From: Anaerolineales bacterium | GTDB lineage: Bacteria > Chloroflexota > Anaerolineae > Anaerolineales > JABWBV01 | DNA length: 43,837 nt | Direction: 5' to 3' | Assembly (NCBI GenBank): GCA_013359445.1 | Contig: JABWBV010000003.1 | Location: 1-43,837, forward strand | Shown: piece by piece, positions 8,461 to 27,096 of the stretch | Layout: each line of letters opens with the position of its first letter | Position numbering within the stretch: position 1 is the stretch's first letter | The notes under the pieces: generated by a model | Databases searched by the model: none | Told to the model about the DNA's origin: nothing | Seen by the model: only the letters and a program-made list of their open reading frames with translations | Position numbers and translations under genes: made by a program

Positions 8461-8537
8461 TATAACGAGAGCATCCTGAGCGGAGCGGTAAAAGGTCATT
8501 GTCTTGACTTTATTTTTGTCAAGCGCAGTCGAAGGAT
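8461..8537 (+). repeat. 77-bp dispersed repeat, copy 1
   Basis: Runs from TATAACGAGAGCATCC to GCAGTCGAAGGAT and is nearly identical to 8558-8634. It contains a short hairpin CTTGAC-N9-GTCAAG. The outer parts (CTGAGCGGAGC and AGTCGAAGGAT) resemble the element at 27740-27800. Confidence 0.85.
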
Positions 8538-8557
8538 AAAAAGCGGAACCCCCCAGA

Positions 8558-8634
8558 TATAACGGGAGCATCCAGAGCGGAGCGGTAAAAGGTCATTGTC
8601 TTGACTTTATTTTTGTCAAGCGCAGTCGAAGGAT
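8558..8634 (+). repeat. 77-bp dispersed repeat, copy 2
   Basis: Near-exact direct copy of 8461-8537, starting 97 bases later. The two differ at a few bases near the left end (GAGAGCATCCTGAG against GGGAGCATCCAGAG). The spacer holds no gene. Confidence 0.85.
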
Positions 8635-8748: not shown

Positions 8749-11700
8749 TCACGGCTTTGCCACAAGCGGCAAATAAATCTCCACCACCGGCGGCACTACC
8801 CCCTCCACCACCAGCGTTGCTGTATCACTCCCCTGTGCCCCGCCACTGTCCGCGGAGACCGTGAGCGTGTACGTCCCATTCCCGGGCGCGTTTGCCACGA
8901 CCAACAACGTCGCCGTGGCATGGGCCGGGATGATCACCGACCCCAGCGGCAGGTCCACGCTCGCGCCGGATGATCCGCTCCCCGTCAGGGTGAATATCGT
9001 CTGCACATTGCCCGTGTTGGACACCACGACCGTAAACACCGCCACGGTCGAACCGCTCACGGTCTGCGAGGCGGGTTGCCATGCCACCACCACCCCCTCT
9101 GCGGGCGAGATCGCGACCGCCAATGTATCCTCATCCTGCACATAACTCTGCGTTTGCGATTGGGCGTGAACCCCCAGCAAGTAATCCGTCGCGAGGAGGA
9201 AGTCGAACCCGCTCGCGGTCAACTGCACGGTTTGGGATGCGCCCGGAGCCAGTGTCACGCTCGCGGGGGAAAGTTGGGCGAACTGGGCGAATGGCCCGTA
9301 AGCGGTCAAATCATACGTGTCCGCCACAGCGCCGTTGTTCGTCACCGTCACGTCCCAAACACCACTCCCGCTCACCTGCCCCGGCCCGGAAAGGGCCACC
9401 GAGACCCCCAGATTCCCCACCTGCGCGACACCCGCGCCCGTGTCTGAAGTCAGTGCCGCGCAAGTAGTAACGACTTCAGTCGTTTGGGTCTCAGAGCGAT
9501 TGAAATCGCCACTACAAAGCAAAAGCAATTGAGACTGAGCGGTAACTGTAAACGGATAATCGCTGGGGGTGGCATCGCTCGCGGGGGTGAGGAACAATTT
9601 CAGGGTGAGGGCATTCCCCGCACCGGGGGCGACCGTGACGGTTTCGACGGGTTGGCCGAACAGCGTCAGGGAGGCTTCCCACCCGGTGGGGATGGAGGCG
9701 GTCAGGTCGTAGGTATCGGGCACGGTACCCAGGTTGGTGATTCGCACGTCAAACGGGGTCAGCACGCCCGGCCCGGTCGGGGCAGTGGCGGGGAGGATCG
9801 CCACTTCAACTTGCTGGAACCCTTCGCCGATCACGGTCGCGGTCGCTTGCCCACTCGCCGTGCCGTTTTCTTCCGTCGCGGTGAGGGTGAACGGGTTTGC
9901 GCCTTCGCTCGCGGCTTGGGCGGAGAAGGGGACGAAGGCGGTACTGTTCGCGGACACGGTCACTTCATCGGGCAGGGTGAGGGGGGCCAGACCACTGCCG
10001 GAGAGGGTGTATGTGCGGGCCACGGTGTCCGCGTTCGTCAGGGAGAGGGTGTAGGTCGCCACTTCGCCCGTCGTCACGGTTTGGTTCGCGGGCATAATCT
10101 CAAGTTCGAGCAAGTTCGCCACGGTTAGCGCCCCTCCCGCCTGATCCGCCGCGCCCTGATCGGTGGTGACAGAGACGAGGAAGGGCAGGGTGGCAGTGTC
10201 CGCGTCGAGGGGGATGTCAACGGTCAACGGCACGGTGACGGAATCCCCCGCCGGAACGGGCACCGCGCCCGAAAGCGTCGCCCATCCGGTCGGGAAGCCG
10301 CTCACGGACAGGGTATACAGGGCACTGACCCCGGACGGGTTGGTTAACACCACGTCGAATACGGCACTGCCCCCCGCACCCACCGTTTGCGTGACCGGTT
10401 GCACGTCCACGATGTGCGCCACACTGACAAACAACGGCGGTAGTTCGAGATGGTTCGTGCCGCTGGAAACCACGTAATCGGCTGTCGTGCCCTGCGCCAC
10501 CATCCGGGATTCGCCGGGTTGGAGGTTGGTCAGTAAACTGGTGAAGGTTTGGGTGACGACGGTGTTTTCCCAGGTGACAGCGTAATCCCAGCCGTAGATG
10601 GGGTCGTTGCTCGTCGTGGGCGGGATGTTGAAAGTGTTGGTTAGTACGGTCACGTCATCCAGCCCGACGGTGTGGGTGAGGGCGACCGCGTAGGAAGGCA
10701 TTGGGTTCAGGAACGGCGTCTGAGTGCGGTAGGTGTTGTGGCTTTCCCAGCTGTTCGGCTCGCTGAACGGCACGGTCAGGTCATCGTTGATGTTGGTGAT
10801 GTGGTAACTGTGCTCGTTCCAAAGTGGGCGGGCCGGTCCCCACGCGGCCCCAAACCCGAACACCCGCACGCCCCCCAACGCCGCGGAGACGATTTCCGCC
10901 TGCCCGTCATTGTCCACATCCACGATCAGAGGGTAATCCGTGCCGGTGAAGGAGTTGACAAGCGGTTCGTTGAACAGGATCGAGCCATTGAGGCCGCTGA
11001 AGATGGTAAAGCCCTGCTCTTTGCCATTCCAGGCCACTTCGTAAATGCCGTCGCCATCCAGATCGAGCACGGAGGCATTGTTGGCGGAAGAACTGTCTTC
11101 GGCAATGGCATCCCACAGGAGGGAGCCATCGGCGTTGAGGGCGTAGAGCATCCCGAACCGTCCGGTTTCAAATTCGTACCGCATCCCGGTCACGATTTCG
11201 ACTTCGCCATCCCCATCGAGGTCGGCAATGGAGACGCCGCCGGGGTTGCCGGGATCGAGCGGGGTATCCCACACGAGCGAGCCGTCTTCCCCGTTCAGCA
11301 CGGTGAGCAGACCGTTGGAGGCGAGCGCGACTTCGGGGCCGGGATCGCCGCCGGGCTGGAGGCCGTCAATGTCTGCAATCGCAGGTGCGCCGAACGTGCC
11401 CGCCATGCTTGTCGGCAAAGTGACGCTCCACACGAGTTGGGGCGAACCGTAGTTGAAGTCGTACACCAGCACTTCATCATCCCACCCGGTGAGGACAATA
11501 TCAAGCAGGCCATCGCCGGTCAGGTCGGCCAGGACAGGGGGATTCACCTCGGCGGGGTACACCGTACTCCAGGCGAGGGTGCCATCATGGTTGCGGACTT
11601 CGAGCGTGTTGCCGAGGTTGACTACAATTTCCGGTTCGGGATCGAGATCGAGGTTGCCAACCGCGGGGGCGGAGAGGGTTTCAAAGATGCTGGCCGTGGG

Positions 11701-14700
11701 AACCGCCCAATAGGTGGAACCATCGCCGCGAAAGGCGAAGAGTTGATTGCCCGCGGCCACGATGATCTCCGCGCCCGGTTGCCCGTCCAGGTCCGCAAGG
11801 GCGGGGGAACTGACCCAGGTGCGGAAAACGGCCTCGTTCAGGTCTTTGACCCAGATGATCGGGTCGCCATCGCCCGTATCGCCCCCATCGCCGCGGAAGA
11901 GGAACAACGAGCCAAAGTAGGTATTGTCATCGGCGGGGACGACGATTTCGACGGTGCCATCGCCGTCCACATCGCCTGCCGCCATCCCACCCGCGATGCC
12001 ATACGTCCCGAAGAACGGTGCGCCGTTTCCGGCAGGGGCATTGTTCCACCATTCGACGACGGGCTGGTAGGGGATGTCGGGTTGGTTGGAGGCGAATCCG
12101 TCCAGGCGCATCACCCAGATATTTTGGACATGCACGGTGTGTGGCCCATCTTCCAGCCCGGTAAAGTGTACGGCGAAGGGCTGTTCGCTAAACGGGTAGT
12201 GGAAGCTGACATTTTGGAGAAATTCCCCATCCACAAACACGTCAAAGTTTGTGGTGTTATTTCGGGTGAAGCCATAGAGGGTGAAGGAGGTTCCGGTGAA
12301 GTGATACCACACCCCGGCCCAACTGTTGGGCAACCCGGCATTGAAGAAGTCCCCATCTATTGCGTTGTTGTTCGCGATGTCTTCGCCGGATTTGTTGAAG
12401 TGCAGGCGGGAAACGGGCGTGCCTTTCCGCACGTTCACAAAGTCATCGGGCAAGGGCGTGCCGTCCCACACATCCACGTAGTCGAAACGGACAATGCTTC
12501 CGACACTGGGCGGGTCGGGTTGGGCCAGTACGGTGATGGAGAGGGTGTGCGTGCCGGTGATCAGGTTGCCGTACTGGAACTCGACAGGAATATCTCCGCT
12601 GGCCTCATAGAGGCCAATCGTGCCCTGGCTCACCCCGTCAATGAAGACTTCCGCGGTGCCGCCGTCGCTCCGACTGAGGAAACCCAGGTTTACCCAACGC
12701 CCCTCAAACGTGAATGTAATCGTATCGTTCAACGTGCTGGAGCGGGCAACCCCGATTTCGCTGGAGGTGGGTTTGATGGCCGTTTCCCAATCCCAGGAAC
12801 TTTTGCGGGTCTCGAACGGATAGCCGTCGTACAGAAACGCCGGGTGGTCTTCTTCGTAGCGCACGATGCCGGTCTCGACCGGGGGCACGTATCCCGGCTC
12901 CAGCGCGGGGGTGACGAACGCATCCACACTCGGTTCTCCGTAATAATTTGTGATCCGCATCACGTGCGGGCCAGTGCCCAGCCCCTCGAAGGAGATAGTT
13001 CGGGTGACGGCCTCTGTGTTATACAGCCAGAGATTGTCTTTCCAGACGCCATCCACATACACCCCTGCACGGAACCCGTCCCAATTTGCCAACCCCACAA
13101 ACGTCACCGAATCGCCCGTAAAGGGGAACCACGCCGATCCGCCGTTGTTGCCGTCGTCGGTCATGTAGGTGCCGCCGCTCGCGTTCGCGTTTGTAACGGT
13201 GACCCAGTTGTTGTTGTGCCACACGCGGGCACTGTCTTGTTCCACCCACCCGTCGGCGTAAAGTGTGCCATCCCAGGTGTCCACATAATCCAATTGGACG
13301 CGATTCCCTAACGAATTCGGGTGATGCGTGCCGAGGACGAAGATTTGGAGTGTGTGGGCAGTGTCGGCAAACCCATCGTAGACAAAGCTGACCACATCCG
13401 GGTCCTGCGTGTACAGGTCTACCACGCCCTGGCTCACCCCGTCCACCAGGATTTCGGCCTGCCCGGAAGTGAAGCCAGTCACAAACCCAAGATGCAACCA
13501 CGTCCCGTTAAAAGTCATCGTCGCCGTTTCCCCTGCCGCGTCCGCCCAGGTGTAATCGTTGTGACTGGCCCGAACGTGAAACCCGCCCACCGTGACCACC
13601 GTCCAGGTTCCGGCGTAGGTAATCGCCGGGTCGGTGTCTTCCGTGCGGGTGATGGGGAAGGTGGAGGAAATGGAATTAGGAATTGGGAATTGGGAATGGG
13701 GAATGGGTTCATTCTGATTCCCGTTTCCTACTTCCTGATTCCCATTTCCTATTTCCTGATTCCCTGCCCCCATCGTATCTGTGATGATCGCAGGAGTGAG
13801 AATCTCCGTCGTGATCACCGTCGTGACCGTGACCGCGCCCGGCGCGACGAGGCCGGGTTCCACGGCGTGACTGATCCCGACCGCTTGCCCCACCCCGAGG
13901 AATCCGTACCCCGATCCGTCAGGGATCAGCGCCCCGGACGGATTACGCAATTCGACCGTGATCGTGTACACGCCCGTTTCCCAGCCCGACGTGTCCACCG
14001 TGCCGAGTGCGTAATTCCGCGGGGACCCGACCAGGATCGTGACCGGAACTTCGGCGGTGTAGCTGATCCCGCCCGTGGGGTGCAGAATTTCGACGTGCGC
14101 GGTGGCGGGTTGGAGGATGTTCGCGTTGTTCGCCACCGAGATCGAGATGTCTGTCGCACTCACGCCCGTTTCCACGAACGGCGGGTCGGGGGTGACGGCG
14201 GTCAGTTGCACGAACTTGTCCACCACGTTGAGTACGGCGTTGCTGTTGGACAGGATTGAATCCTGTCCAACCACGACCGCGACCGCGTCGAGATCGAACA
14301 GGCCAAGGGAAGGGGAACTGACAGGGAACTCAAAGGAACTGGTCTCCCCCGGATTGACTGAATACTGACCACTGACCACTGACGACGGGAGCGTGACCGT
14401 CAGGGCATACGTCGTTGCCAGCGTGCCCGCGTTGGTCAGGTCGAGGGTGTACGTGGTCGGTTCGCTCACCAGGGCCGCGCCGTAGTAGGGCGACCATTTC
14501 AGTACCGGCATGGATTCACTCCACGCGCAAACTTCGGTATCGAGGCCGACAACGGCGTCGCTCAGAGTTTGCAAGTCGGCGAGGATGTCGGCGGTATCCG
14601 TGTGGGAGGCGAGGGTGTCGGCGGCAGTCAACACCGCGTCATCCTGCACGAGGCCCGGAGAGATCACGCCCGCGTACAGGGCGACGGAATACGCCGCGCT

Positions 14701-17700
14701 GACCGTCTGATCCCGGAGCGACAGGTTGCAGTCCCCGTTCAGGCAGGAGGCCTCCAAATGCACCATCGCCAGCGCGAGCGATTCCAGTGCGTCCGACAGG
14801 CCGGGTTCGCCGAGGGTGCAGGCGTTGGCGGCGTGGTCTGAGGCGATGAAGATGGGTTCGGTGATGGAGCTGACGATTTGTGCCTCTACCACCGCGTATT
14901 GGGTGTAACTACCGGGCGCGGGGCTACCGAGGATGATCGGGAAACGGGAGCCGAGCGGGATGCCGGACGTGTTGAGGGTGGCGTTAAACGACTGGGTTTC
15001 GCCCACCGCCAGGGAGACGGGAGACGGAAGACCGGTGACGGAGGCGGTGATCGGTGGGAGGGAGGCGATGATCGGGAACGTGCCATCTGCGTTGCCGACG
15101 TTGGTCATTTCGAGGGTGAAGTCGGTGCTACTGTCGGAGCCGAGGTAGAGGGTTGAAGCCAGGGGATTGAGGTAGTTGAAGGGTTGGGAGGGCATCGTCC
15201 AGTTCACCGTTTCGCTTTCGGAGAGGGCGCCGCCATCGCTGACGGTGATCTCCATGCTGAAACTGGTTCCTGGCGCGGGCAGGGTGGGCGGGGACACGTA
15301 GAGGCCGACGGCGGTTCGTTCGGTTGCGGGGAGGGTCAGCGTGGTGCTGGCCTGGCGCGCCCCGTTCAGGATCAGCCATCCCGCGGGGGCACCGGTGACG
15401 GTCAGGGAGAGGGTTTTGGCGGAACCGGTCGCGTTGTAGAGGCCCACATTGAACGCGCTATCCGGGATTTCCGCTTCTGCATCGTTCGTTTGCCCCGAAA
15501 CGGTGGGGGCGACGCTGATTCCCACGGGGACGGTAATGCGCTCGTCGCTGGTCACGCCGAGCGTCAGCGCCTCGACCGCGACCACTTCTACTTCCTGCTG
15601 GGTCACGGCGAACACGTCGGGCTGGGTTTGCGCCTGGGCAACGATGTCCAACGTGTAGAGGCCCGGGGCGGTGTCCGGGTTCGGGGTGACGAGAACGGTA
15701 TTTTCATCGTCAAAAATCACATGCCAATCCGCCGGGGCCAGCACGCTGACCGTGATCTCATCGTCGAAATTGGCGGTGAGGGCCAGGTCAAAACTCATCG
15801 CGCCATAGGGCAGGACCCGATCTTCGGCGGTGTTTGTGGAAAGATTCAGGACCGGATCGCCGCTCCCGCCATTATCCGTCACCGAGACCGCTTGAATAGC
15901 AAGTGGGCTGGCATAAAACGGATTGAGGTGCCCAAACAGCATATCCGGTAAAGGAAGCGTGCCTGGGGCAAGGTCGTAATTGGCAAATTGTTCGATGCCA
16001 CAGTTTTCGATGGGGCAGAGGTGGGCCGGTAGAAAACGCCAGGCCGCGTCAAACAACCCGCCATGAATGGCGTCCGGTTGGCTGGGCGAGGCACTCGGCC
16101 CGGGCAGGGGCGGCATAGGGGGCCAGGGACTGGGAAGCGGGGAGGGCGGTCCGGGCAGGGGAAGCGGCGGGGTCGGGGGATTGCCACAACTACCCCCTCC
16201 CTGAATGGCTCCCACAACATTGCAAGCGATCCAATCCCAAAGTTGGCCGACCTCATAGGCTAATTTTCCAGGCTCATAAAAGGTCAGGAATAAATCCCAC
16301 ATTTCAAGAAAGCCATATTCTATGGCGGTCAAATGCAAACCATTTTCCATCACGCTGATTGTCTCGCCTGTGACGGGGTCCACTTCCCACCATCCCAGAA
16401 CGTCTTCCCCGTCAACTTCCACTGGGGCGGAGGGAATGACGATGGATTTGCCTTCCAGCAGGGCTTCGACCGCGTGGGCCGTGGCCTCGGAATCCAGACC
16501 ATAAACATCGAGCAATTGCATCGTGGCAGGTGTAACCAGCATGGGTTTGATGCCCTGTTCGGTCATGGCGTCAAACACGCGGGCGGTGGTCAGCGGCAAG
16601 ACGCCCGTTGCATCCTGCAAGACCTGTCCTTCCCGGTAAGATTCCAAAACTCCTTTGGTCCATTGGGCACTCAACGCGGCAGAAGTGGCCTGCCCAGGGT
16701 AGACGATGGCCTCCGCGCGCGTGCTTCGTAAGTCCAGCGTTTGAATGACCGTGGCATCCGCTTCGTTGTGTTGCGAGGCGTTGATGATCACCCGTGGTAA
16801 GGCGTAGTAGAGCTTTACGAACAGCGATTCCTCAATGCCCGCCAGGTCTTCATCGGCGGATTCGGCGAAATCGTAGGCCAGTTTGGAGAGAAAACGGGCA
16901 TACCCCAGTTGGATTTGAAGGAGCGCACGTTGGGTGGCCGCTTCCTCCTCGGGAGTGGGCGGATTGCCCTGGGAATCAATCACCTGCCCGGCTTGGGAGA
17001 GAATTTGTCCGTCCACGAGGGTGGTGGCCCGTTGGCGTGCGTACAGTGACTGATCCCGCACCACGTTCGGGAGGAAGGTCGCCACGAACACATCGGTAGG
17101 TTTCAGAAACGCACTGTTATCCTCGGGCAGGGTAATGCTCGCACCGCCCCCGTTCAGGCGGACATCCAGCCCTACCAGGTCTTTGAGGGTGCGGGTAAAC
17201 GTTTCGCTATGTCCGTCCGGGTCGGTGGTGGTCACGGTGAGCCACTCCGCCGTGGTGAAATGCGATGCAAAGGGGAAATTACTCAAAATGTCCTGGAACG
17301 GATCGCCCAGCGTTTGAAAATCTTCGCCGGTCAGGTCAAAAAACGGCGTGTAGGTATGGGTCACGGTGGTAAAAACAGCCCCCACAACTTCTGTGTTGAG
17401 ATAGTGCCCCACCGTGAGCGATTTGGCGGCGAGTTGGGCCATCGGGTAAGTGATTTCAATCGGCACGAACTCATTTAAAAATGTCCCGCCTATCGGAAAT
17501 TGATTGTATTGCTCGACTCGCAGGGTCACGGTGGCCTTGTGGCGAAGCGCGTCTGGCAATTCGGCAATCTGGTCGTTGGCACCCGGCGTGGCGAACACGT
17601 CCCCCGGTTGGGCGTTGGCGAACGATGGGTCGAGGTTCGTCCAGCCGGAACCGGGGAGGTACGCTTCCACCCACCAATGATCGGAAACGAGCGCGAGCAG

Positions 17701-18726
17701 GGCGGGGTCGTTGACCGGATCGCTAATCGGCGTCCCGGCGGGGAGCGTGCCCGCGACGCCGGTTTGCGCGACCGCTCCTTGAGCGGCGAACATGCTGGCG
17801 ATCAGCGTCTGGGCGTCGGCAGAATCCAGTGCCCCGTGCCGATACCGCGCAGGGATGCCCGCCGCGCGCAACATCGCGATCAGCAGGCTGGATTGGTCAA
17901 CCGAGTTTCCCGCTTCCCCCCACAGGGTGCCACGCGTGCCGCGCAACGAGCCTTTGTACGGGTCATAGCCCAAACCGCGTACAAATTCAAACATCGAGAG
18001 CGCATCTTGTCCGAGGGCGGCGGATTTCCAGAGCATATCGGCGTCGCGGGCGTTGGCGTCCACGGTGGGGAGGGTGAAGGCGGGGTCAATCCCGGTTGGG
18101 ATTAGCACAGCGGGCGGGGCAGTGGCGTTGACCGGTTCGCCCCATCGTGCGGCGGAGACCTGCGCGCCGGTGTCCAGATTGACAAAGCCGGTGCCCTGCG
18201 CGGGGGTTTGCAGGGACATCGTGAGGGTCGCGGAGGCTTGCGGGGGCAGATCGGGCAGGGTCCACGTCAGGGTGTTTCCAGCCTGTGCGGGGTTCCCGGA
18301 GGCGGCGAGGAGGGTGGTGCCGGGGGTGAGGGTGTCCGCGAGGGTGATCCCGCGCAAGGTGTTGACATCTTCGGAGAGGTCAAAGGCCGCGAGGATATTC
18401 ACCGTGTCGGTAATGGTGGCGGATACCGCCACGTCGGGCAGGCGGGTGGTGGGGAGGTTGTTGGTGAGGGTGAATTCGACAACCGTCTGCCCGGCGACGT
18501 AGGAGGTTTGGACGCGGGAAAGCGCAAGCGGCGATTGGGTTAATGGGGAATTTTGAATAGGGAATTGTGAATTAGGAATGGAGGAGGCGGGCGCGCTGGC
18601 GTAGGCGGGAGGGAGCGCGGCGGCGAGTTGGGAGAGGATGAAGAGGAGGACGATCAGGCGGTGGGCCAGTTGGCGATGAGAAGCGGGGGATGATTTCAAG
18701 TTGCACCTCAGGGATATGAATTTCAT
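8749..18726 (-). CDS. Giant secreted multidomain protein (3325 aa): transglutaminase-like, beta-propeller, NEW3-type repeats
   Basis: Starts with a signal peptide (RLIVLLFILSQLAAALPPAYA near residues 24-43). A transglutaminase-like domain lies around residues 215-360 (LLIAMLRAAGIPARYRHG, DHWWVEAYLPGSGWTNLDP); the usual catalytic Cys position holds Ser (GNSVDQSSLL). A proline-rich linker lies near 850-885. Many Ig-like stretches follow, then two tandem ~250-residue modules (about 1690-2215) sharing AEILVDGVSQG/AEVFIDGVSQG and YVDTWDGT/YVDVWDGT. An FG-GAP/VCBS beta-propeller lies at about 2220-2625 (GDVDGDGTVEIV, ADLDGQPGAEII). NEW3-like Ig modules fill about 2740-3300. The chain ends VEIYLPLVAKP. 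It is predicted to be at the cell surface. It lies downstream of a sigma/anti-sigma pair that may control it. Several in-frame repeats interrupt it. ATG at 18726 follows GAAGG. Confidence 0.93.
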   Translation of the reverse strand: MKFISLRCNLKSSPASHRQLAHRLIVLLFILSQLAAALPPAYASAPASSIPNSQFPIQNSPLTQSPLALSRVQTSYVAGQTVVEFTLTNNLPTTRLPDVAVSATITDTVNILAAFDLSEDVNTLRGITLADTLTPGTTLLAASGNPAQAGNTLTWTLPDLPPQASATLTMSLQTPAQGTGFVNLDTGAQVSAARWGEPVNATAPPAVLIPTGIDPAFTLPTVDANARDADMLWKSAALGQDALSMFEFVRGLGYDPYKGSLRGTRGTLWGEAGNSVDQSSLLIAMLRAAGIPARYRHGALDSADAQTLIASMFAAQGAVAQTGVAGTLPAGTPISDPVNDPALLALVSDHWWVEAYLPGSGWTNLDPSFANAQPGDVFATPGANDQIAELPDALRHKATVTLRVEQYNQFPIGGTFLNEFVPIEITYPMAQLAAKSLTVGHYLNTEVVGAVFTTVTHTYTPFFDLTGEDFQTLGDPFQDILSNFPFASHFTTAEWLTVTTTDPDGHSETFTRTLKDLVGLDVRLNGGGASITLPEDNSAFLKPTDVFVATFLPNVVRDQSLYARQRATTLVDGQILSQAGQVIDSQGNPPTPEEEAATQRALLQIQLGYARFLSKLAYDFAESADEDLAGIEESLFVKLYYALPRVIINASQHNEADATVIQTLDLRSTRAEAIVYPGQATSAALSAQWTKGVLESYREGQVLQDATGVLPLTTARVFDAMTEQGIKPMLVTPATMQLLDVYGLDSEATAHAVEALLEGKSIVIPSAPVEVDGEDVLGWWEVDPVTGETISVMENGLHLTAIEYGFLEMWDLFLTFYEPGKLAYEVGQLWDWIACNVVGAIQGGGSCGNPPTPPLPLPGPPSPLPSPWPPMPPLPGPSASPSQPDAIHGGLFDAAWRFLPAHLCPIENCGIEQFANYDLAPGTLPLPDMLFGHLNPFYASPLAIQAVSVTDNGGSGDPVLNLSTNTAEDRVLPYGAMSFDLALTANFDDEITVSVLAPADWHVIFDDENTVLVTPNPDTAPGLYTLDIVAQAQTQPDVFAVTQQEVEVVAVEALTLGVTSDERITVPVGISVAPTVSGQTNDAEAEIPDSAFNVGLYNATGSAKTLSLTVTGAPAGWLILNGARQASTTLTLPATERTAVGLYVSPPTLPAPGTSFSMEITVSDGGALSESETVNWTMPSQPFNYLNPLASTLYLGSDSSTDFTLEMTNVGNADGTFPIIASLPPITASVTGLPSPVSLAVGETQSFNATLNTSGIPLGSRFPIILGSPAPGSYTQYAVVEAQIVSSITEPIFIASDHAANACTLGEPGLSDALESLALAMVHLEASCLNGDCNLSLRDQTVSAAYSVALYAGVISPGLVQDDAVLTAADTLASHTDTADILADLQTLSDAVVGLDTEVCAWSESMPVLKWSPYYGAALVSEPTTYTLDLTNAGTLATTYALTVTLPSSVVSGQYSVNPGETSSFEFPVSSPSLGLFDLDAVAVVVGQDSILSNSNAVLNVVDKFVQLTAVTPDPPFVETGVSATDISISVANNANILQPATAHVEILHPTGGISYTAEVPVTILVGSPRNYALGTVDTSGWETGVYTITVELRNPSGALIPDGSGYGFLGVGQAVGISHAVEPGLVAPGAVTVTTVITTEILTPAIITDTMGAGNQEIGNGNQEVGNGNQNEPIPHSQFPIPNSISSTFPITRTEDTDPAITYAGTWTVVTVGGFHVRASHNDYTWADAAGETATMTFNGTWLHLGFVTGFTSGQAEILVDGVSQGVVDLYTQDPDVVSFVYDGFADTAHTLQIFVLGTHHPNSLGNRVQLDYVDTWDGTLYADGWVEQDSARVWHNNNWVTVTNANASGGTYMTDDGNNGGSAWFPFTGDSVTFVGLANWDGFRAGVYVDGVWKDNLWLYNTEAVTRTISFEGLGTGPHVMRITNYYGEPSVDAFVTPALEPGYVPPVETGIVRYEEDHPAFLYDGYPFETRKSSWDWETAIKPTSSEIGVARSSTLNDTITFTFEGRWVNLGFLSRSDGGTAEVFIDGVSQGTIGLYEASGDIPVEFQYGNLITGTHTLSITVLAQPDPPSVGSIVRFDYVDVWDGTPLPDDFVNVRKGTPVSRLHFNKSGEDIANNNAIDGDFFNAGLPNSWAGVWYHFTGTSFTLYGFTRNNTTNFDVFVDGEFLQNVSFHYPFSEQPFAVHFTGLEDGPHTVHVQNIWVMRLDGFASNQPDIPYQPVVEWWNNAPAGNGAPFFGTYGIAGGMAAGDVDGDGTVEIVVPADDNTYFGSLFLFRGDGGDTGDGDPIIWVKDLNEAVFRTWVSSPALADLDGQPGAEIIVAAGNQLFAFRGDGSTYWAVPTASIFETLSAPAVGNLDLDPEPEIVVNLGNTLEVRNHDGTLAWSTVYPAEVNPPVLADLTGDGLLDIVLTGWDDEVLVYDFNYGSPQLVWSVTLPTSMAGTFGAPAIADIDGLQPGGDPGPEVALASNGLLTVLNGEDGSLVWDTPLDPGNPGGVSIADLDGDGEVEIVTGMRYEFETGRFGMLYALNADGSLLWDAIAEDSSSANNASVLDLDGDGIYEVAWNGKEQGFTIFSGLNGSILFNEPLVNSFTGTDYPLIVDVDNDGQAEIVSAALGGVRVFGFGAAWGPARPLWNEHSYHITNINDDLTVPFSEPNSWESHNTYRTQTPFLNPMPSYAVALTHTVGLDDVTVLTNTFNIPPTTSNDPIYGWDYAVTWENTVVTQTFTSLLTNLQPGESRMVAQGTTADYVVSSGTNHLELPPLFVSVAHIVDVQPVTQTVGAGGSAVFDVVLTNPSGVSALYTLSVSGFPTGWATLSGAVPVPAGDSVTVPLTVDIPLDADTATLPFLVSVTTDQGAADQAGGALTVANLLELEIMPANQTVTTGEVATYTLSLTNADTVARTYTLSGSGLAPLTLPDEVTVSANSTAFVPFSAQAASEGANPFTLTATEENGTASGQATATVIGEGFQQVEVAILPATAPTGPGVLTPFDVRITNLGTVPDTYDLTASIPTGWEASLTLFGQPVETVTVAPGAGNALTLKLFLTPASDATPSDYPFTVTAQSQLLLLCSGDFNRSETQTTEVVTTCAALTSDTGAGVAQVGNLGVSVALSGPGQVSGSGVWDVTVTNNGAVADTYDLTAYGPFAQFAQLSPASVTLAPGASQTVQLTASGFDFLLATDYLLGVHAQSQTQSYVQDEDTLAVAISPAEGVVVAWQPASQTVSGSTVAVFTVVVSNTGNVQTIFTLTGSGSSGASVDLPLGSVIIPAHATATLLVVANAPGNGTYTLTVSADSGGAQGSDTATLVVEGVVPPVVEIYLPLVAKP
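9464..9515 (-). repeat. Double-palindrome dispersed element inside the giant gene
   Basis: GTAGTAACGACTTCAGTCGT ... GCGATTGAAATCGCCACTAC, the same element as in the gaps at 22340 and 27052. Here it is read as protein (GDFNRSETQTTEVVTT, near residues 3070-3090) without breaking the frame. Confidence 0.85.
13670..13770 (-). repeat. Short tandem repeat (GGGAAT/GGAATT type) inside the giant gene
   Basis: About 100 bases of degenerate units such as GGAATTGGGAATTGGGAATG and TTCCTGATTCCCATTTCC. It encodes the low-complexity stretch GNQEIGNGNQEVGNGNQ followed by HSQFPIPNS near residues 1652-1686. The same units occur at 18541-18582 and between genes at 20829-20872. Confidence 0.8.
14245..14271 (-). 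repeat. Perfect 27-bp palindrome inside the giant gene
   Basis: GTTGGACAGGATT, a one-base centre, then AATCCTGTCCAAC. It is read in frame as VVGQDSILSNS near residues 1485-1495. It looks like an inserted dispersed palindrome rather than part of the Ig-like domain. Confidence 0.65.
14356..14383 (-). repeat. Short tandem ACTGACC repeat inside the giant gene
   Basis: GACTGAATACTGACCACTGA followed by CCACTGAC. It is read as SVVSGQYSV. Such CAGTGGTCAGT strings are usually intergenic in genomes of this style. Confidence 0.55.
15012..15032 (-). repeat. Short GGAGACG tandem repeat inside the giant gene
   Basis: Three imperfect units of GGGAGAC/GGAAGAC. It is read as GLPSPVSL between two Ig-like modules. 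Confidence 0.4.
18541..18582 (-). repeat. Short tandem repeat just after the signal peptide of the giant gene
   Basis: Units of GGGAATT/GGAATTAGG type encode SIPNSQFPIQNSPL just downstream of the signal peptide. It belongs to the same repeat class as 13670-13770, whose product includes HSQFPIPNS. Confidence 0.65.
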
Positions 18727-18740
18727 AACAAACCTTCGCG

Positions 18741-18775
18741 CCAATCGAGGTTTTCGATAAGAAAACCTCGATTGG
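18741..18775. promoter_or_regulatory. 15-bp perfect hairpin in the leader of the giant gene
   Basis: CCAATCGAGGTTTTC and its exact complement enclose a 5-base loop. It ends 14 bases before the ATG at 18726, next to the ribosome site. No T-run follows on the minus strand, so it may slow translation or protect the processed mRNA rather than end transcription from the anti-sigma gene. The rest of 18727-18939 holds no supported gene. Confidence 0.6.
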
Positions 18776-18939: not shown

Positions 18940-19242
18940 TTATCGCTCAAAGGCCTGGAGCACTCGCACCAACGCCTCATACTCCTCTCGGCATTCCGGG
19001 CACATCATCAAATGATGTTCGACCAGGGGCATGAGTTGGGCGACGTTTTCCCCCCGTTGGGCACGGTCGGCGTATTCATCCAGCAGGGCAAACACCTCAT
19101 CGCAGGTCAGTTCCACCTCGCGCGTGTGGGGCAGGCTTTGGAGGAGCATCCCCTCGGCAGGGGTGAACTTTTCCGGCGGAGCGGATTTTTGGAGGGGGTT
19201 GAGGCGTTTGACCCAACGGCGAAGGGCGTTCAAAACGTTCAT
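18940..19242 (-). CDS. Zinc-finger (zf-HC2-type) anti-sigma factor
   Basis: A 100-residue protein with the anti-sigma zinc-binding signature in its C-terminal half: CDEVFALLDEYADRAQRG, then LVEHHLMMCPECREEYEAL (Cys, His, Cys, Cys). The N-terminus is basic and helical (LNALRRWVKRLNPLQK). No membrane segment is present, so it would be a soluble anti-sigma factor. ATG at 19242 is preferred over the TTG at 19272, which would add MCRFWYLKNH. It lies 33 bases after the sigma factor stop and upstream of the giant gene. The order sigma, anti-sigma, effector suggests one operon. Confidence 0.8.
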   Translation of the reverse strand: MNVLNALRRWVKRLNPLQKSAPPEKFTPAEGMLLQSLPHTREVELTCDEVFALLDEYADRAQRGENVAQLMPLVEHHLMMCPECREEYEALVRVLQAFER

Positions 19243-19275
19243 GTGATTTTTTAGATACCAGAACCTGCACAAACC

Positions 19276-19914
19276 TTACGGATTTCCAAAGGTCGCCAAT
19301 AAATCTTCGGGGGAGATTCCCTCTTGGGCCAGCCGCCGCTTGAGTTTGAGGCGGGCGTCGTGAATGAGTTTGTACAACGCGTTCCGGTTGGTGTTCATGC
19401 GCCGCGCGAGTTCTTCCATCGGCATGCCGGTGAGCGCCATCGCCGTCATCGCCTGGCGTTGTTTGTCGGTCAACTCCTCGGCCATCATCCGCCGCACGCG
19501 GGCCATCAGATCCTGCCCTTCGATGATCTGTGCGGGGCTTGCGCTCGGATCGGCCAACCATTTTTCCGTGGGAACCCCGTCGTCCGTCTCCGATATCGCT
19601 TCCAACGAGTAATTTTGCCAGCGTTTGCGCCGCAAATCGGAATAGGCCACCCGCACGGCAATTTTATGCACCCAGGTGGTGAACTTGCTTCGTCCTTCAA
19701 AGGTATGGAGATGCGCCAAGACCCGAAGCAGGGTTTCCTGCGCGACCTCCTCCGCCAGCGCCTCAAAGCGGGGATCGGAAGGGGTCAGCCACCCACTCAG
19801 CGCATAGGGGAGGCCGTGCAAAATTTCCTGGCGCAGATCGGCGAGGGCTTGCGCTTGATGGGGATGGGCGGGGGTGAGGTCTTCAAGCCATTGTTCGTTG
19901 GTACGTTCCTGCAT
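19276..19914 (-). CDS. ECF-type RNA polymerase sigma factor
   Basis: Sigma-70 group 4 factor of 212 residues. The region 2 segment is RFEALAEEVAQETLLRVLAH, followed by GRSKFTTWVHKIAVRVAYSD and LRRKRW, the -10 recognition part. The region 4 helix-turn-helix is LTDKQRQAMTAMALTGMPME, then ELARRMNTNRNALYKLIHDA, for -35 recognition. ATG at 19914 is preferred because the longer upstream frame runs into the promoter. A TATAAT sits at 19927-19922 on this strand, only 7 bases before the ATG, which predicts a leaderless mRNA. The partner anti-sigma factor follows at 19242. The likely regulon includes the giant secreted protein downstream (inference). Confidence 0.9.
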   Translation of the reverse strand: MQERTNEQWLEDLTPAHPHQAQALADLRQEILHGLPYALSGWLTPSDPRFEALAEEVAQETLLRVLAHLHTFEGRSKFTTWVHKIAVRVAYSDLRRKRWQNYSLEAISETDDGVPTEKWLADPSASPAQIIEGQDLMARVRRMMAEELTDKQRQAMTAMALTGMPMEELARRMNTNRNALYKLIHDARLKLKRRLAQEGISPEDLLATFGNP

Positions 19915-19921
19915 GGGGGAA

Positions 19922-20030
19922 ATTATACTGACAAGTTCTAACAAAAAAGTAAGAAACCCCCGGTGCGAGGCACTTGAATCCGCAAAATCAAAAAAAGTGC
20001 GCCGCACCGGGTGGAAAAAAGTAAGAAACC
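19922..20030. promoter_or_regulatory. Divergent promoter region with two direct AAAAAAGTAAGAAACC repeats
   Basis: The identical 16-mer AAAAAAGTAAGAAACC occurs at 19943-19958 and 20015-20030, 72 bases apart. TATAAT (minus) lies at 19927-19922. The first repeat covers the -35 position for the sigma gene, and the second lies 38 bases before the ATG of the VTT gene. This could be a shared operator or a promoter element for the ECF factor. Confidence 0.5.
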
Positions 20031-20067
20031 ACAACGATGCGCGTTCTCTACCCGTGAGACACATCCT

Positions 20068-20781
20068 ATGGAAAGTTCCCCCCCCTCCACCCCCTCCAAA
20101 AACTGGCTTCAAGCGCACGCCCAAAAGCTCATCGCTCTGGCGTTTTGGCTCGCCCTGATCGTGGCCTATCAACTCTATGCCCGCGCCAACCAACTCACCG
20201 CGTTGGAAGTGGTGCAAAACCTGCTCGACTTTTTGAAAAACGGTCTGTGGGGGCCGGTGCTGTACATCCTCCTGTACGCCATCCGCCCGCTGATCCTGTT
20301 CCCCTCCACCTTGCTAACCCTCGCGGGTGGCTTTGTCTTCGGCCCGGTGCTGGGCGTGCTGTACACCATCCTCGCCAGCAACACCTCTTCGACTATCGCC
20401 TATTTTGTCGGGCGGTACTTCGGGCAGGGGTTGGTCAACGATGACGGTTCCGACGGCCTGATCCAACGCTACGCCCGCCGAATGCGTGCCAACAGCTTCG
20501 AGACCGTGCTCGTGATGCGCTTCATCTTCCTCCCCTACGACGCCGTCAGCTACCTCGCCGGATTTCTGCGGATTCGCTATGTCCCCTTCATCCTCGCCAC
20601 CGCCCTCGGCTCCATCCCCGGCACTATCGCCTTCATCGGCTTTGGTGCATCCATCGAACGCTTCGACGGTACCATCCCCCAACTCAACCCCGTCACCCTC
20701 GGCTTTTCCATCGCCATTTTTATTCTCAGCCTCCTTCTTTCCCGCCTCTTCAAAAAGCGCGAAGGGAGGATTGATGCGTGA
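20068..20781 (+). CDS. VTT-domain (TVP38/TMEM64, DedA-like) membrane protein
   Basis: Polytopic inner-membrane protein of 237 residues. After a hydrophobic segment near residues 16-36 come the re-entrant-loop parts of the VTT (SNARE-associated) domain: LFPSTLLTLAGGFVFGPVLG near 80-100, IAYFVGRYFG near 110-120, RFIFLPYDAVSYLAGFLRIR near 150, and ALGSIPGTIAFIGFGAS near 175-195. A final segment (LGFSIAIFILSLLLSRLFKK) closes the protein. The family has been linked to lipid scrambling and undecaprenyl-phosphate handling. TVP38-like genes often sit beside, or are fused to, MerA-like flavoproteins, and such a gene follows here. The stop codon lies within a hairpin stem. ATG at 20068 is chosen over an upstream frame that begins in the promoter. 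Confidence 0.88.
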   Translation: MESSPPSTPSKNWLQAHAQKLIALAFWLALIVAYQLYARANQLTALEVVQNLLDFLKNGLWGPVLYILLYAIRPLILFPSTLLTLAGGFVFGPVLGVLYTILASNTSSTIAYFVGRYFGQGLVNDDGSDGLIQRYARRMRANSFETVLVMRFIFLPYDAVSYLAGFLRIRYVPFILATALGSIPGTIAFIGFGASIERFDGTIPQLNPVTLGFSIAIFILSLLLSRLFKKREGRIDA

Positions 20782-20813
20782 AACGTGATTCGTGATTTCA
20801 CGTTTCACGCATC
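20773..20813 (+). terminator. 16-bp hairpin containing the stop codon of the VTT gene
   Basis: GATGCGTGAAACGTGA pairs perfectly with TCACGTTTCACGCATC across a 9-base loop. The TGA stop (20779-20781) is in the left arm. There is no T-run, so it may act as a 3-prime mRNA end or be a dispersed GTGAAACGTGA repeat. The motif TTTCACGTTTCACGC also occurs at 24601-24615, at the start of a permease gene. Confidence 0.6.
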
Positions 20814-20828
20814 ACGGCTTACCCCTCA

Positions 20829-20872
20829 TCATTCACCATTAAATATTCCCAATTCCTAATTCTCCCTCCCCC
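20829..20872 (+). repeat. AATTCCCAATTCCTAATTC tandem string before the flavoprotein gene
   Basis: A short tandem string of the class found within the giant gene, here directly next to an ATG. No clear ribosome site remains between it and the start at 20873. Confidence 0.5.
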
Positions 20873-22339: not shown

Positions 22340-22385
22340 GTAGTGACGACTTCAGTCGTTAAAGTCAACGATTGAAATCGTCACT
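22340..22385 (+). repeat. Double-palindrome dispersed element, intergenic copy
   Basis: GTAGTGACGACTTCAGTCGT ... AACGATTGAAATCGTCACT. It forms two small hairpins plus an overall palindrome. It is the same family as 9464-9515 (coding) and 27052-27096 (inverted). Confidence 0.85.
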
Positions 22386-22435
22386 CCGTGAAATAACGTG
22401 CTTGATTCCCCCAATTTTTTAGGAGAACCCCATCT

Positions 22436-27051: not shown

Positions 27052-27096
27052 GTAGTGGCGATTTCAATCGCTCTCAACGACTGAAGTCGTCACTAC
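27052..27096 (-). repeat. Double-palindrome dispersed element, inverted intergenic copy
   Basis: The reverse complement of GTAGTGACGACTTCAGTCGT ... GCGATTGAAATCGCCACTAC. It sits between the convergent methyltransferase and hydrolase genes and may end both transcripts. Confidence 0.85.

Follow-up and report, generated by a model that had tools for sequence, protein, structure and literature searches.

Repeats with a seven-base unit have been described chiefly from intergenic DNA, and heptamer repeats are known in cyanobacteria (STRR) and in many bacteria (LSSR). TAACTGA heptamer repeats occur in Beggiatoaceae, Cyanobacteria, and Bacteroidetes; most lie immediately before start codons and few within genes of known function, one of them being found in an RNA polymerase beta-prime-like gene (MacGregor, PMC4679880). 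In reverse orientation this repeat codes for LSVISYQ, and its tolerance at protein ends or between the parts of modular proteins has already been proposed (PMC4679880). The GGGNATC repeats of Xanthomonas and Nostoc are G4-forming and under-represented in genes (PMC4692102). Rickettsia palindromic elements (RPE), finally, are repeats that sit within unrelated genes and are translated in frame with them (PMC10969869). We found no published account of heptamer repeats in Chloroflexi coding regions.

Here, we examine a 43,837-nt stretch of DNA from an Anaerolineales bacterium (the window), which is contig C701 of an assembly of 7.04 Mb in 822 contigs, estimated as 95% complete and 6.6% contaminated. 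A sequence-only reading of the window had pointed to several classes of short repeats within one giant gene.

Repeats within the giant reading frame

The giant gene encodes 3331 aa in one open frame on the minus strand (8749-18744). Its product comprises a signal peptide (assigned by eye), a transglutaminase core, Ig-like/NEW3 modules, CE2_N-type modules, and FG-GAP repeats, and its nearest named relatives are in Chloroflexota MAGs (Thermoflexales, Ardenticatenaceae, and Anaerolineales). Directly upstream, on the same strand, are a weak match to zf-HC2 (anti-sigma-like) and a sigma factor of the sigma-70 type (18940-20217), and just downstream a 77-nt sequence is directly repeated, the two copies being 97% identical with 97 nt between them (8461-8634). 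All of the strings reported for the gene are present in its open frame, namely GGGAATT-type, ACTGACC, and GGAGACG strings and a 27-bp palindrome. When self-similarity was scored at a lag of 7 nt, the gene yielded four segments with a score of at least 11.5 in 10 kb, against control-lag expectations per 10 kb of 0.084 at scores of at least 11 and 0.056 at scores of at least 12.

The GGGAATT-type strings form arrays at two sites, both read on the minus strand. Degenerate ATTCNNN (GAAT) heptads at 18541-18579 stand just after the signal peptide and code for IPNSQFPIQNSPL, at about aa 56-68. GGAATTN heptads at 13672-13707, located in the linker that joins a beta-sandwich module to the first CE2_N-type module, code for PIPHSQFPIPNS, and a block at 13714-13764, also on the minus strand and reported by TRF as 2.4 copies of a 21-nt period at 93%, codes for GNQEIGNGNQEVGNGNQ. 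Module limits were taken from an AlphaFold model of aa 1420-1850, a weak model (five sequences, mean pLDDT 56) used for this purpose alone. In it, the linker array has a pLDDT of 24-29 and lies between the beta-sandwich and the next beta module.

The other strings are placed differently. The ACTGACC heptads (14357-14386, minus strand; coding strand CAGTGGT, peptide VVSGQYS) form a turn and a beta strand of the beta-sandwich module, modeled at a pLDDT of about 80. The GGAGACG heptads (15012-15032, minus strand), which with three units are the weakest case, sit inside an Ig-like module and code for SPVSLAVGE-like residues that are conserved in orthologs. The proposed location of the repeats, mostly between modules or just after the signal peptide, is valid for the GGGAATT-type arrays and invalid for ACTGACC and GGAGACG, which are inside beta modules. 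The palindrome is perfect, with 13-bp arms and a 1-nt center (14245-14271, no strand), and falls in a low-confidence loop between beta strands. No second copy at up to 3 mismatches was found in the 7.04 Mb, which rules it out as a dispersed element. As a single-copy sequence it is not a repeat class, and the classes that stand are the GGGAATT, ACTGACC, and GGAGACG arrays of 7-nt units.

A search with 2980 of the 3331 aa found, in the same assembly, a homolog 64% identical to the giant gene (contig C55, L019), which may be a paralog or may come from a second population in the MAG. The homolog bears both GGGAATT-type arrays, after the signal peptide and in the linker, and the giant gene has exactly one extra 21-nt unit in the linker, GGGAATCAGGAAATAGGAAAT, equal to three heptamers and 7 additional aa. 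Copy number therefore varies between these related genes, and this one 21-nt step, the only one seen across our comparisons, preserves the frame, both homologs being open. In phase-variable contingency repeats, changes in unit number switch a frame on and off. At the ACTGACC, GGAGACG, and palindrome sites, the homolog is of equal length and has no repeat; GGAGACG was rejected as an inserted array, the homolog differing there by substitutions alone.

Heptad arrays across the genome

Doublets of each word were counted over the 7.04-Mb assembly, with the reversed pattern as control. GGGAATT doublets occurred at 83 sites against 1 for the control, and the excess was about twofold for ACTGACC (97 against 43) and GGAGACG (170 against 79). 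The sequence-only reading had held that tolerance of repeats by the gene would be contradicted if the strings were absent from intergenic DNA elsewhere; they are abundant elsewhere, and so the tolerance reading is not refuted on that count. In the same-family genome G001, GGGAATT doublets numbered 41 against 0 for the control, with few elsewhere in the order.

The excess extends beyond these words to the unit length. In a 785-kb sample of the genome (stretches amounting to as much as 1.2 Mb were used overall), 65 lag-7 segments scored at least 12, compared with an average of 4.4 for control lags; a few control lags bear real repeats themselves, so this comparison is conservative. Tandem units of 7 nt thus exceed other periods. 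The words are degenerate, with a core such as GAAT, CGTGA, or CAGT and two or three free positions. Using coding regions called with a purpose-built simple hexamer model, we found that 39 of 83 lag-7 segments in the sample were within predicted coding sequence and 44 were outside. At a coding fraction of 0.815, with about 18% of the sample non-coding, arrays are about fivefold denser outside genes than within them. Eleven of the 39 coding segments were within about 2% of a gene end, where start and stop calls may err. The arrays are therefore dispersed over the genome and denser between genes.

Such arrays are also found in the gaps of the window itself, as had been proposed for a string near 20829: an intergenic ATTCNNN heptad mosaic in one 7-nt register (20830-20866) adjoins an inverted, intergenic GTGAAAC-type array, CGTGAAACGTGATTCGTGATT / TTTCACGTTTCACGCATCACG (20777-20816). 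Arrays followed by their own reverse complement form long intergenic hairpins at this last position and at L064:6571-6625, L044:6659-6710, and L076:8655-8695. Other periods were also observed in the sample of this genome. Period-8 arrays of the AACCAACC/AACCAATC type occur in L041, L049, L052, L061, L062, and L086, some of them in frame (TNQPTNQP peptides in L052 and L061), and L051, L057, L082, L087, and L098 contain period-9 arrays of the GGGTAGATA type, most of which are not in genes.

Within coding sequence, the giant gene is not a special case. It holds 3 of the 39 coding segments, and much shorter genes of 2.6-3.0 kb in L076 and L106 hold 3 each. Carriers in the sample include PurL-, HypF-, CopA-, MenD-, mannosidase-, hydantoinase-, and HsdM-like genes, named from sequence and partly from PDB matches. 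Alignment with solved homologs in the PDB shows additional residues at the arrays of two of these enzymes. In the HypF-like protein, residues 226-277 (SEVSSQYSVVSGQYSV...) align with 17 residues of the solved homolog (chain 194-210), and in the CopA-like protein, residues 54-84 (GNRNQETGERIPNSQFLIPNSQFL) stand against 5 residues (364-368), in a loop whose length is variable among relatives. The PurL comparison is less telling than that of CopA, as PurL-like loops are of varying length in any case. Long open frames of G001, a genome for which no gene model was available, bear such arrays too, and these together with the many ordinary enzymes of this genome speak against the repeats as a property of the giant gene. 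One G001 array of 246 nt (L212:4354-4599) lies inside a 279-codon open frame, with HSPFSIL repeats. Separately, an imidazolonepropionase-like gene (L084:3314-4876) codes for an insert of 60 residues at a point where the flanking residues almost adjoin each other in the solved homolog; this insert is not a heptad array.

Like STRR and LSSR, the arrays have 7-nt degenerate units with many words per genome, are dispersed and denser between genes, and are amplified in a lineage-specific manner. They are unlike them in that a large share is translated, as part of conserved enzymes and of a giant surface protein, and in that one linker bears different words in different genomes.

Words at the orthologous linker

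Linker length differs among orthologs of the giant gene, and some orthologs have no heptads there at all. In the orthologs L029 and L027, from other genomes, the linker carries CAGTNNN heptads instead of GGGAATT words, and at the ACTGACC site L029 has CAGTNNN heptads with 7 more residues. Eight homologous genes were scanned for CAG at no fewer than 4 of 5 positions spaced 7 nt apart, with codon shuffling as control. Positives were found at aa 1453 of the window gene, aa 1438 and 1643 of L029, and aa 1680 of L027, with codon-shuffle means of 0-0.02. They were limited to two sites, the linker (L027 and L029) and the ACTGACC site (the window gene and L029), and the same scan found no CAG heptads in L026, L030, L032, or L033.

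The words follow the genomes. Sites matching CAGTTATCAGTGATCAGT with up to 3 mismatches numbered 681 against 1 for the control in the genome of L029, 1052 against 27 in that of L027, and 96 against 6 in that of L032, with no excess in those of L026, L030, and L033. GGGAATT doublets numbered 0-4 in all six of these genomes (4 for L029, 2 for L027). The window genome has both kinds, with its 83 GGGAATT doublets and 80 CAGT sites against 5 for the control, and the giant gene likewise has both. Each genome thus has its own amplified words. Tandem units of TAACTGA, or of CAGTTAT on the reverse strand, were found in L029 and L027 and in their genomes but not in the main arrays of the window. Our arrays share their unit length with the TAACTGA repeats, and the L029 and L027 linkers bear related CAGTNNN words (LSVISDQ); they differ in involving many genes and many words, and in the one observed length step of 21 nt. 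What sets the present case apart is the extent of translation and the presence of genome-specific words at one conserved linker.

Origin and retention of the arrays

The strings in the giant gene are probably genome-wide degenerate heptanucleotide tandem repeats of the STRR/LSSR kind that are translated and tolerated in loops. Each genome would amplify its own words (here GAATNNN, CGTGANN, CAGTNNN, and others), new arrays and changes in unit count being most easily explained by strand slippage or unequal recombination. Since 7 leaves a remainder of 1 on division by 3, three units (21 nt) traverse all three frames, and a word that is stop-free on the coding strand therefore gives the same heptapeptide (NSQFPIP, for example) in any frame. 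Copy changes in 21-nt steps preserve the reading frame. Arrays may be kept in genes mainly where added residues are harmless, that is, after the signal peptide, in linkers, and in surface loops, and we infer a filter of loop tolerance of this kind acting with no benefit to the protein. The positions found support retention where loops allow. In the giant gene these are the sites just after the signal peptide and in the interdomain linker, as had been suggested in proposing that the gene may tolerate or use repeats as linkers; the length variation proposed along with this is seen between the two homologs. Against this reading, the ACTGACC array codes for a beta strand and shows no length change relative to the C55 homolog.

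A second reading, which we regard as possible but doubtful, gives the repeat family a more active role. Genome-specific heptamer vocabularies would repeatedly colonize the same interdomain sites of orthologs, and constraint or exchange at the DNA level would then hold the arrays there, for instance as recombination sites for module shuffling, so that the repeat family and not the protein would set linker sequence and length.

The arrays might instead act as DNA or RNA, as G-quadruplexes, protein-binding sites, or recombination sites, and be kept by nucleotide-level selection and not by tolerance. This we consider unlikely, though the comparison with C55 lends it some weight. Nowhere is the DNA of the two genes better conserved than in the arrays they share (window-protein aa 56-72 and 1659-1695), with 94% nucleotide identity against a gene median of 68%, synonymous sites included. 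Identical codons numbered 26 of 27 in the linker array (16.9 expected) and 14 of 15 in the array after the signal peptide (9.3 expected). Such conservation would not be predicted for neutral filler and counts against it, but gene conversion confined to the arrays would produce the same pattern; either DNA-level constraint or such exchange may account for it. The linker array also has four runs of at least 3 G on the plus (template) strand, and among coding arrays of the GGGAATT class the C-rich strand is the coding one in 13 of 17 and the G-rich strand in 4, although both strands are stop-free. This bias is weak without the window and its homolog (11 to 4). These features recall the GGGNATC repeats, with a nearly identical word (GGGAATC/GGGAATT), dispersal, and G runs every 7 nt; the GGGNATC repeats are also biased off the coding strand, as the arrays here may be. 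The arrays here differ in lying in frame in many genes, and a G4 in the window arrays is a candidate predicted from the letters. At the orthologous linker, the CAGTNNN words lack G-runs and some orthologs lack heptads altogether, which argues against a function of this kind.

Insertion of the arrays in frame by a mobile element, in the manner of the RPEs, as opposed to growth in place, is quite improbable. RPEs are the best analogue for in-frame repeats, and one feature of the giant gene that had been overlooked does resemble them: a 52-bp REP-like palindrome pair, GTAGTAACGACTTCAGTCGTT..CGATTGAAATCGCCACTAC, with GTAGT...ACTAC ends, in frame at 9464-9515 (minus strand). It adds about 18 residues or more, and orthologs have no insert there. 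Further copies occur in the window (intergenic at 22340-22386; between genes in reverse orientation at 27052-27096) and at other places in this genome. In genes resembling HypF and glycosyltransferases (L074 and L076), related elements are likewise read in frame. The frequent arrangement of intergenic arrays as inverted pairs also fits a mobile element. This REP-like pair is, however, the only sequence here that resembles RPEs, which are palindromic, about 150 bp long, and have fixed ends; the heptad arrays are tandem without fixed ends. Neither constant flanks nor target duplications were observed next to the heptad arrays, which vary in their boundaries and in the number of units. Comparison with C55 reveals no insertion at ACTGACC or GGAGACG, and the linker difference between the homologs is a single internal 21-nt unit.

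That the peptides themselves are selected as spacers of a surface protein, with DNA repetition as a by-product of low-complexity protein, already appears very unlikely. Spacers would suit both the array positions, in linkers or following the signal peptide, and the differing linker lengths of orthologs, but a single site carries unrelated peptides (NSQFPIP and LSVISDQ), the same words recur in intergenic DNA, and intracellular enzymes contain the same peptides. Chance or ordinary coding sequence, a reasonable account of GGAGACG (three units, conserved residues, twice the control) and of the single-copy palindrome, is already refuted for the main arrays, GGGAATT and ACTGACC/CAGTNNN, and as a general explanation is next to negligible.

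Under the tolerated-repeat reading, heptad repeats would be a routine source of protein sequence here, with orthologs adopting whichever word their own genome has amplified. If this is true, repeat dynamics would supply variation in linker length in seven-residue steps, and NSQFPIP-like inserts in predicted proteins would be repeat-derived sequence and not domains.
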